From assembly GCA_903832205.1 (NCBI GenBank), contig CAILAH010000031.1, positions 1 to 45,247 on the forward strand: a stretch of 45,247 nucleotides of DNA. The letters run 5' to 3'. The notes beneath the pieces are model-generated. The model searched no databases. It saw only the letters and a program-made list of their open reading frames with translations, and was not told where the DNA came from. Made by a program: the position numbers and the translations under genes. The DNA is from an uncultured Microcaldota archaeon (GTDB lineage: Archaea; Micrarchaeota; Micrarchaeia; CAILAH01). This document shows positions 35,367 to 37,865 of this stretch, in pieces; the first letter of the stretch is position 1, and the number at the start of each line of letters is the position of its first letter.

Positions 35367-35819
35367 TTACTTCATTATGTAATGCACATTCCTTCCCGCC
35401 TGCCTCTTATCGAGGTATCCCAGCGAGAACAGCCTGTGCAGGCGCGAGCTTGCGCCGTTCCTTCCCTTGTAATCGAAGTGCTTCTGCACTTCCCCTGCCG
35501 TGACCATTCTCATCTTCTTCACGTACCCGAGCAACTCGGAATCGACCTCACCAAGAAGCGTCTTCTCCTTCTTTCTGGCCTTTCCGAGCTCACTCTCGAG
35601 CTTCTCTACCTGCATTTCCAGCTTCTCGATTTTGCTGATTGCGGTCGCAATCAGGCTGTTTGTCCTTTCGCGCTCATCCTTGAGCGAGTACATGAGTTGG
35701 GCGATGACGACCGGGTCAGCGAGATCTTTCGAGGAGACTATTTTCTCTTCAACGTTTGCATTCGCTACCGCCGCCTCAAATTTATATTCTTTCGCTGCTA
35801 ATTCCTTTTGTTCGTCCAT
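35367..35819 (-). CDS. Coiled-coil winged-helix DNA-binding protein
   Basis: The protein has 150 residues. Residues about 45-90 form a coiled coil (ATAISKIEKLEMQVEKLESE). Residues 92-150 form a winged-helix domain: GYVKKMRMVTAGEVQKHFDY, RLHRLFSLGYLDKRQ, then the wing strand VHYIMK. It probably dimerises through the coil and binds DNA. Six phased repeats lie directly upstream, in the interval shared with the divergent 35917 operon, so it is the natural candidate to bind them and regulate both directions. Function inferred. Confidence 0.8.
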   Translation of the reverse strand: MDEQKELAAKEYKFEAAVANANVEEKIVSSKDLADPVVIAQLMYSLKDERERTNSLIATAISKIEKLEMQVEKLESELGKARKKEKTLLGEVDSELLGYVKKMRMVTAGEVQKHFDYKGRNGASSRLHRLFSLGYLDKRQAGRNVHYIMK

Positions 35820-35830
35820 CGCTCCAACTC

Positions 35831-35892
35831 ATCAAGACATTATCATGAACGTATCATGATACTGTCATGACACTATCATTATAGCATCAATG
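35831..35892. promoter_or_regulatory. Six direct repeats with exact 11-bp period (operator candidate)
   Basis: Heptamers begin at 35831, 35842, 35853, 35864, 35875 and 35886: ATCAAGA, ATCATGA, ATCATGA, GTCATGA, ATCATTA, ATCAATG. All are spaced 11 bp start to start, so they lie near one face of the helix. The core TCATGA is itself palindromic. The array ends next to the TTTATAAAT box of the rightward operon. Likely bound cooperatively by a regulator. Confidence 0.8.
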
Positions 35893-35900
35893 TTTATAAA
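35893..35900 (+). promoter_or_regulatory. TATA box of the 35917 operon
   Basis: TTTATAAA sits about 20-25 nt before the ATG at 35917 and directly abuts the repeat array, so protein bound to the array could block or recruit the basal factors. Confidence 0.6.
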
Positions 35901-35916
35901 TCTATCGTGATGTCCC

Positions 35917-36480
35917 ATGCCGTCTGATAACTCGCACCTCAAGGAAGGCCTCAAGAAGCTCTATAGCCACGTGAGGACGAGGAACATCCGCGGCCTCCGC
36001 GACGCCTCGAACGTATTCACGCACGAATTGCTTATTTTCCAGGACCCATTCTATCTCGATTTGGCGCTCGTCTCTCTCGTCCTTGCAAAGATGGTGGAGA
36101 AGCCGCGCTTCTGGAGATATGAGCAGTGGAAGGATATCATATTATCAATAGAGGGCGGGCTCAAGCAGGCGGTTTCCCTCGCTGAACGCAATGATTTCAA
36201 GGGCATAAGCAGGATTGTCAGGCTGATTCTTGAGAAGCTGAGCAATGTGGAAAAGCAGGACAGGCGCTATGTCGATACGGTGGTGATGTCGGCGCGCATA
36301 AAGATTGGCTCGACGCTCTACGGCCAGGGGCTTTCCCTTGGAAAGGCGTCCTCGCTGGCCGGCGCGGAGCGCGATGACGTGCTTCGCTATTCCGGCAGGA
36401 CGCTCATCTCCGACAGGTTCGGAAAGACATTTTCAATAGGAGAGAGGTTAGGCAATGTCGCAGGAATCTTCAGAAATTAA
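35917..36480 (+). CDS. Helical protein, unknown, first gene of nuclease operon
   Basis: The 187-residue protein is all-helical and basic. The N-terminal part includes LKEGLKKLYSHVRTRNIRGL; the C-terminal part (GKASSLAGAERDDVLRYSG) looks like a helix-turn-helix or small DNA-binding unit. I do not know the family by function. It overlaps the following PIN-domain gene by 26 nt, so the products are co-translated. Expression probably answers to the repeat array upstream. Confidence 0.7.
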   Translation: MPSDNSHLKEGLKKLYSHVRTRNIRGLRDASNVFTHELLIFQDPFYLDLALVSLVLAKMVEKPRFWRYEQWKDIILSIEGGLKQAVSLAERNDFKGISRIVRLILEKLSNVEKQDRRYVDTVVMSARIKIGSTLYGQGLSLGKASSLAGAERDDVLRYSGRTLISDRFGKTFSIGERLGNVAGIFRN

Positions 36481-37168
36481 CCGCAACTCAATAGTGTGCG
36501 ATTCAAGCTCGCTAATCTCACTAGCTGAAAGCTGCCAGCTCGATGCGCTCTCGTTTTTGAAGCAGCACATGTTCGGCGATTTCATCTATCCGCGCACCGT
36601 CCGCATAGAATCGATGGAGCGCCCGATGAACATGCGCGAGCATTCGCTGCGCGCGTTCCGCCTCATGGACTATGAGAAAAGCGGCACAATCAAGTTCGTT
36701 GAGTACGATGTCACGCAGAAGATGAATGAGCTCATGAACACCGCAAACAACATCTTCTCCGTCTACGGCAAGCCCATCCAGCTGATGGATCCCGGCGAGG
36801 CTGCGCAGGTCGCGCTGGCCATGGAGTTCGGGATAAACTGCATACTGATTGATGAGCGCACCACGCGCACATTGATTGAGGCGCCATTCAGGCACAAGGA
36901 GCACCTGGAGCGCGAGTTCCGCAAGACCGTCAACACGAACGACAGGCTTCTCGAACGGTTTAACGATCTCACCAGGGATTTGAAGATAATACGAAGCTCT
37001 GAAATCATACTTCTCTCCTACAAGTACGGCTATTTCGACCACTACGGCGAGAATAAGGAGAAGGCGCTTGAGGGCGCGCTCTATGGCGTGAAGCTCTGCG
37101 GGTGCAGCATCAGCTTTGAGGAGATTGACGAGATCATGCGTGAGTTACATGCCAAGCAGCTCTTCTAA
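36455..37168 (+). CDS. PIN-like domain protein
   Basis: The protein has 237 residues. An N-terminal strand with Asp16 (IVCDSSSLISLAES) matches the first acidic site of PIN nucleases. D112/E115 (MDPGEAAQVALA) and D133/E134 (CILIDERTTR) supply the further acidic residues in the expected order. PIN domains cut RNA. The C-terminal 90 residues are an additional helical region not seen in toxin-type VapC. ATG 36455 has AGAGGTTA upstream. It sits between an unknown helical protein and an ERCC4 nuclease gene. Confidence 0.8.
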   Translation: MSQESSEINRNSIVCDSSSLISLAESCQLDALSFLKQHMFGDFIYPRTVRIESMERPMNMREHSLRAFRLMDYEKSGTIKFVEYDVTQKMNELMNTANNIFSVYGKPIQLMDPGEAAQVALAMEFGINCILIDERTTRTLIEAPFRHKEHLEREFRKTVNTNDRLLERFNDLTRDLKIIRSSEIILLSYKYGYFDHYGENKEKALEGALYGVKLCGCSISFEEIDEIMRELHAKQLF

Positions 37169-37865
37169 GCCTACCAGTGAACGGGCGGAATCACAATCAA
37201 CCCTTAGTGGGTTTGCTTCACCCGGCGAGGTAATCGTTTACGTCGACACGCGCGAGGATGCCGCAGTTGTGGAAGCCATTGGGAAGCGCGGCTGCAAAGC
37301 CATCATTAGGCAATTGGATGTTGGCGATTATATCGTCTCCGACCGCGCGATCGTTGAGCGCAAGACGCGTGATGATTTCGAAAGCTCCATAATTGACGGA
37401 CGGCTTTTTGACCAGGCATCGCGCATCACGCAGGCCTACGAAAAGGTTGTCTACATAATAGAGGGGCAGTCTTTTGCGGAAAGGGTGAACCGGAAGGCGC
37501 TCATGGCCGCGGTCGCCTCGCTCATGCTCAACAATAACATCTCCATCTTCTTTACGCGGGACCCTTCAGCAAGCGCAGAGCTCATCTGCGCGCTCGCATC
37601 CAAGGAGCAGATTGAGTCGAGAAGGACAATACTCATAAAGAAGCCGAAGAAGCACAATGATGAGCAGCTCTCCATCCTCTACATCGCATCGGCTATTCCG
37701 CTTATCGGGGAAAAGACGGCAGAAAACCTTCTCCTGCATTTCGGCTCATTGCAAAATCTCTTCGGCGCAACCGAGCAGCAGCTCGCGGAAGTGAAGGGAG
37801 TGGGAAAGAAGCGCGCCCGTGAAATCGCAAAGATACTCCGCACAAAATACGTTTCGCGGGATTAA
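37149..37865 (+). CDS. ERCC4/XPF-type structure-specific nuclease
   Basis: The 238-residue protein has an ERCC4 nuclease domain with the metal-binding set D33 (VDTRED), GDY (59-61) and ERK (70-72, VERKTRDDF). A tandem helix-hairpin-helix region follows (IPLIGEKTAENLLLHFGS, EVKGVGKKRAREIAKIL). It lacks a helicase domain, so it corresponds to the short archaeal XPF form that cuts branched DNA as a dimer, often with PCNA. I choose ATG 37149, overlapping the PIN gene by 20 nt. Confidence 0.93.
   Translation: MPSSSSKPTSERAESQSTLSGFASPGEVIVYVDTREDAAVVEAIGKRGCKAIIRQLDVGDYIVSDRAIVERKTRDDFESSIIDGRLFDQASRITQAYEKVVYIIEGQSFAERVNRKALMAAVASLMLNNNISIFFTRDPSASAELICALASKEQIESRRTILIKKPKKHNDEQLSILYIASAIPLIGEKTAENLLLHFGSLQNLFGATEQQLAEVKGVGKKRAREIAKILRTKYVSRD

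Follow-up and report, generated by a model that had tools for sequence, protein, structure and literature searches.

The locus and its repeat array

The window analysed in this study, meaning the whole stretch of 45,247 nucleotides of contig CAILAH010000031.1, carries between two divergent genes an array of six short tandem repeats, which lies in the promoter of a gene for a coiled-coil and winged-helix (wHTH) DNA-binding protein and is considered here as the probable autoregulatory operator of that gene. Relatives of this gene recovered from named genomes belong to Micrarchaeota and the host is a micrarchaeote. The features on which the argument depends, including the B recognition element (BRE) of the promoter, are as follows.

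35831–35892, no strand: predicted operator array of six units with the palindromic consensus RTCATGAY, starts 11 bp apart (from the sequence, and conserved in orthologous promoters)
35367–35819, minus strand: gene of the coiled-coil and wHTH DNA-binding protein, 150 amino acids, presumed binder of the array and autorepressor (open reading frame, AlphaFold2 model and family scans)
35893–35900, minus strand: TATA1, the TATA box (TTTATAAA) of the wHTH gene (from the sequence and the conserved TATA-array layout)
35901–35907, minus strand: BRE (CGATAGA) of the wHTH promoter (matches the consensus of 69 promoters)

A previous sequence-only reading of this DNA had described six heptamers in exact 11-bp phase, and these were found at all six of the starts that it gave, namely 35831 (ATCAAGA), 35842 (ATCATGA), 35853 (ATCATGA), 35864 (GTCATGA), 35875 (ATCATTA) and 35886 (ATCAATG), with 6, 7, 7, 6, 6 and 4 of 7 matches, respectively, to the consensus ATCATGA. 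This consensus fits most of the units, the sixth being weak, and could be refined, since in the best units the true repeat is the 8-bp palindrome RTCATGAY; being palindromic, it lacks any intrinsic direction. The regularity is also beyond chance, as had been claimed: a scan of the full window for six 7-mers at periods of 8–14, made without any consensus, scored the array at 36 out of 42, the runner-up place at any other period at 31 and the best of 60 first-order Markov shuffles (45 kb each) at 32. The array was likewise detected by TRF (period 11, score 54), and it is the sole occurrence of the exact pair TCATGA-N5-TCATGA in the whole source genome. One end of it abuts the wHTH TATA box and the other comes within 11 bp of the start codon of that gene. 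Its period of 11 bp, set against the 10.5 bp of the helix, results in a slow drift around the DNA. This period would be compatible with one protein dimer per two units (palindrome RTCATGAYNNNRTCATGAY) as well as with one per unit.

The AlphaFold2 model of the wHTH protein (single chain, mean pLDDT 83.5) consists of a long helix at residues 36–82 and a C-terminal wHTH at 91–149. No Pfam or NCBIfam family was found above cut-off for the protein of the window, and individual members of its family resemble SoFic-like_C and Penicillinase_R, with a best E of about 1e-5. The gene was found in 262 of 295 genomes of the phylum, including 94 of the 96 high-quality ones, nearly always as a single copy, and in 57 of the 60 relatives.

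Two further observations concern its distribution and integrity. In the genus g71 all five of the sampled genomes (G106, G143, G160, G174 and G212; about 0.5–0.6 Mb) are without the wHTH gene, and four of the five are without the TCATGA-N5-TCATGA pair, the fifth having the pair without the conserved flanks. Also, an otherwise intact wHTH match (G011:C49:13264-13716) is interrupted by a single in-frame TAG, and an otherwise intact Lrp-like match (G036:C16:32994-33938) by a single in-frame TGA.

Conservation of the array at the wHTH promoter

The idea of an array bound by the wHTH protein had been made to depend beforehand on repeats upstream of orthologous genes, and it survived, these being found throughout the phylum. 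In nearly all genomes the orthologous wHTH promoters are composed of a BRE and a TATA box, followed after about 12 bp by TCATGA-N5-TCATGA and then by weaker units on the 11-bp grid. Among 60 whole genomes the exact pair is present in 39, with 42 occurrences, 40 of which (tallied from coordinates) are in the wHTH promoter; the other two, in G015:C5 and G018:C1, are about what chance would produce, a few being expected in 60 Mb, and a reversed-pattern control gave 0 occurrences in the same genomes. At the level of the phylum the exact pair was found in 137 of 295 genomes, compared with a handful of control matches.

Similar results were obtained with a sequence model of the TATA box and array, trained without the family of the window and run over the 60 genomes. 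Its best match was the wHTH promoter in 54 of the 56 genomes with any match, including families outside the training set; a further best match, that in G049, falls at the end of a contig that would truncate the wHTH gene. A genome-wide search for other arrays had also been proposed: the pair is unique in the source genome, and across the 60 genomes no second recurring target of the model was found. A genome-wide regulon was rejected on these grounds, together with the finding that matches at Lrp genes, when followed through 26 genomes, are not conserved. The repeats are tied to the regulator's own promoter, as expected of an autoregulatory tandem operator.

The layout was determined from 69 distinct promoters, chosen by their best TCATGA pair, in which the two anchor units with their R and Y flanks are nearly invariant, and in which the grid units at +22, +33, +44 and -11 have on average 3.55, 3.17, 2.46 and 2.83 of 6 matches, respectively, against roughly 1.5. 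The consensus of these promoters has ACGATAGC upstream of TTTATAAA, and the distance from the start of the TATA box to the best pair is 11–13 bp in 51 of the 69; three others have a distance of 30 bp, and these we read as the promoters of the window and its two family mates. The TATA box at 35893–35900 is assigned to the wHTH gene because its BRE is on the wHTH side and because of the conserved TATA-array layout, and the previous attribution of this box to the nuclease operon is very probably wrong, given the minus-strand BRE and the layout of the 69 promoters. In archaea the transcription start usually lies about 26 bp from the centre of the TATA box; for TATA1, centred at 35896.5, the wHTH start would be expected near 35870, inside the array.

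The divergent operon and an element inside the wHTH gene

On the other side of the array begins an operon of three genes, listed here with its translation signal and with a second TATA-like element.

35917–36480, plus strand: first operon gene, 187 amino acids, all-helical (its relatives show a weak resemblance to UPF0175 in their C-terminal part)
36455–37168, plus strand: second operon gene, PIN-like protein, 237 amino acids (PIN-like acidic pattern read from the sequence)
37116–37865, plus strand: third operon gene, ERCC4-HhH nuclease related to archaeal XPF/Hef (family scans)
35907–35911, plus strand: GTGAT, Shine-Dalgarno-like site of the first operon gene (from the sequence; suggests an mRNA leader)
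35781–35788, plus strand: TATA2, TATA-like element inside the wHTH coding sequence, putative promoter of the divergent operon (synonymous-site signature; orientation and function putative)

For the fold of the first protein no solved relative was found, and a Pfam scan of the PIN-like protein gave nothing above cut-off. Genes of the UPF0175-like, PIN-like and XPF-like types, a Lon-type ATPase and others are conserved neighbours of the wHTH gene, the last identities being read from the sequence. The succession of a UPF0175-like all-helical protein and a PIN-like protein (35917–37168) resembles a toxin-antitoxin-type pair, and it looks as though such a pair had become part of a conserved housekeeping operon with an XPF-like nuclease.

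TATA2 has a signature in codon usage. The N-terminal region of the wHTH protein is variable, with a conserved Tyr/Phe-Lys pair in its midst that is dictated by the TATA-like DNA element (35777–35789 in the window; genes L001–L082). All 51 distinct wHTH genes use TAT or TTT for the Tyr/Phe of this pair, compared with 108 of 437 Tyr/Phe codons at their other positions (Fisher p 2.6e-28), and the Lys codon is AAA in 46 of the 51. Over the four codons at this place the fraction of third bases that are A or T is 0.90, 1.00, 0.90 and 0.78, against about 0.42 gene-wide, and Tyr/Phe codons nearby end in T in only 3 of 35 cases. This skew among synonymous codons means that the constraint acts on the DNA. 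In many copies the antisense strand reads as a full BRE-TATA (GCGATAGGTTTATAAAT in L029), and antisense scores with a BRE/TATA matrix are on average the higher ones (median 8.0 versus 2.9), though in some lineages the element looks more like one in the sense direction and the copy of the window itself is a weak match to the matrix. The element is commoner at loci with a divergent operon (41 of 53 versus 5 of 15, p 0.003 with ancestry ignored).

A promoter at this position would also agree with the translation signals of the operon. Where the operon starts 20–52 bp from the wHTH TATA box, 25 of 25 loci have a Shine-Dalgarno-like match of at least 4 bases and 20 have one of at least 5, counts which used the best-scoring start codon and are biased upward in both groups compared. 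Operon transcripts of such compact loci would hence need a leader, and so a start upstream of the reach of TATA1. TATA2 is centred near 35784.5, which would put the start of operon transcription near 35810, just before the array, and we somewhat favour an operon promoter inside the wHTH gene (35781–35788 here), with a leader that crosses the array.

Interpretation

The reading that we prefer, and consider probable on comparative grounds, is that the array is an autoregulatory operator of the divergent wHTH gene which overlaps the transcription start of that gene. Dimers of the coiled-coil wHTH protein would bind neighbouring RTCATGAY sites, about one helical turn apart and on one face of the DNA, thereby covering the region from just downstream of TATA1 across the wHTH transcription start and the early leader. 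An array filled in this way would block the polymerase, and the amount of wHTH protein would be held at a set level. In compact loci like that of the window, where the divergent operon would be transcribed from TATA2 with a leader crossing the array, the bound array would act as a roadblock to this operon as well. The suggestion that the repeats form an evenly phased, probably cooperative operator, with the coiled-coil wHTH protein as its obvious candidate binder, is supported by the presence of the repeats at orthologues throughout the phylum.

Several points weigh against this interpretation. Three genomes carry a similar site beside other regulator genes (TrmB- and Lrp-like), and the regulon may therefore not be strictly one gene. 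The choice of promoters by their best pair partly selects for the invariance of the two anchor units in the set of 69, an effect that is smaller for the TATA box, for the flanking units and for the pattern counts in whole genomes. All of the evidence is comparative and computational and comes mostly from metagenome-assembled genomes, and related genomes constitute non-independent observations. Finally, an activator site could be equally conserved, and repression is thus the presumed rather than the only conceivable outcome of binding.

A TATA-plus-TCATGA array upstream of a TrmB-like regulator gene was seen in one genome (L093, G015:C5, 2297–2410), and this gene is a possible lineage-specific second target.

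Among the alternatives, the one closest to the sequence-only reading is that the array mainly serves to control the nuclease operon and uses the TATA box at 35893–35900. The operon is indeed the divergent neighbour in most loci (its first gene in 38 of 53), and in the window the gap between it and the wHTH gene is only 97 bp. In 10 genomes, however, the first operon gene is located elsewhere and has no array there (the best pair within 3.5 kb is at chance level), while the wHTH gene retains it; moreover, the orientation of the BRE and the conserved spacing mark the TATA box as that of the wHTH gene, the operon begins anywhere between 20 and several hundred bp from this box, depending on the locus, and in compact loci a transcript start set from TATA1 would miss the operon's Shine-Dalgarno site. 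This alternative is already largely refuted and we consider it very unlikely, and an operator of the nuclease operon only was rejected, since the array does not travel with the operon. A shared bidirectional TATA box at 35893 was likewise rejected as a general rule, in view of the very variable distances to operon starts and the Shine-Dalgarno sites of compact loci. What stands of the proposed control over DNA and RNA nucleases is a plausible co-control of the operon through TATA2, the primary target being, as the 10 genomes indicate, the wHTH gene.

It has also to be considered that the array may be a centromere-like or chromatin nucleation site, on which the wHTH protein would load in order to spread as a helical filament in the style of AspA, TubR or ParR, with self-repression as a side effect. 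TubR and ParR are centromere binders related to the AspA type. Such a role would suit the single strong site per genome, placed upstream of the protein's own gene, the tandem arrangement at 11 bp, the presence of SMC as a near neighbour in the family of the window, and the top Foldseek match of the wHTH model, AspA, a protein that spreads after binding to a palindrome upstream of its own gene (PMC5120986). This match is weak (E 2.4e-3), though, and no better than those to ordinary MarR, ArsR and MecI proteins, no ParA- or ParB-like gene is among the conserved neighbours of the wHTH gene, and SMC is absent from the conserved neighbours in most families. Orc1 lies roughly 300–440 kb from the array in three near-complete genomes (G019, G033 and G056), which places the array away from a likely origin and led us to reject a centromere near it. 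A centromere function is on the whole unlikely, and we would give as little credence to the broader proposal of a phylum-specific DNA-coating or segregation factor, for which the array would be the filament nucleation point and the facing promoters, one of them hidden in coding sequence, would allow filament occupancy to switch the regulator's own gene and the nuclease operon together. Least probable of all, to the point of being hardly credible, is that the conserved block acts mainly as RNA, with a 5' hairpin in the wHTH mRNA leader setting translation or stability. Grid units 3–4 do form GTTGCG...CGCAAC in about half of the promoters, starting near the expected transcription start, and compensating changes are found (GTTTCG/CGAAAC, GTTGCA/TGCAAC and CTTGCG/CGCAAG); the hairpin is nevertheless absent from the family of the window and many others, in contrast to the nearly invariant TCATGA pair, and the first unit would not be transcribed, the expected start being downstream of it. 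A known RNA element was rejected, as Rfam gave nothing at the array locus. The inverted repeat itself was seen in L009, L014, L031, L038, L052, L056, L058 and others, about 19–39 bp past the first TCATGA of the pair.

In the open-access papers that were searched we found no prior description of a Micrarchaeota autoregulator or of the repeat sequence, and the array system suggests a tightly self-limiting, previously undescribed regulator. Gene regulation in Micrarchaeota is poorly known, and here a regulator family that lacks a Pfam or NCBIfam model is present in nearly every member of the phylum, together with a binding site that is predicted down to the single base and is conserved across the phylum. 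So conserved a site with consistently one target is unusual, which raises the question of the role of the protein beyond self-control. TATA2 constitutes a clean example of selection at the DNA level shaping the amino acids of a protein, and would link the wHTH regulator to a nuclease operon that is itself unstudied.

Comparison with known systems

BlaI/MecI repressors (Penicillinase_R) bind palindromic operators over their own promoters. The wHTH family is similar to them in sequence in 19 of 27 members (best single-member E 1.7e-5), and MecI is among the fold matches of the wHTH model. The protein of the window reaches only 16.2 bits against PF03965, below the gathering cut-off of 22.6, and differs from these repressors in having its wHTH at the C-terminus, after a long helix and N-terminal coiled coil, in the lack of a C-terminal dimerisation domain and in its different operator.

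AspA of plasmid pNOB8, the best structural match, is a wHTH protein for which binding to a palindrome upstream of its own gene and spreading from there have been described (PMC5120986). Both are wHTH proteins with palindromic or tandem sites upstream of their own genes. The array system, however, is chromosomal, in a housekeeping context and far from Orc1, its protein has a long N-terminal coiled coil, and the fold score is weak; the ParB and ParA genes that would mark an AspA-ParBA system were not found among the conserved neighbours of the wHTH gene.

Ss-LrpB of Sulfolobus solfataricus is a dimeric archaeal regulator which controls its own gene cooperatively through several sites (PMC6497280). 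A self-limiting regulator with several sites at its own gene is also what is predicted from the sequence for the wHTH protein, in which Pfam and NCBIfam scans found no Lrp/AsnC domain architecture. Unlike Ss-LrpB, this system is predicted to employ an unrelated coiled-coil wHTH protein; its 11-bp units, of which there are at most six, follow the TATA box, and it is conserved throughout the phylum.
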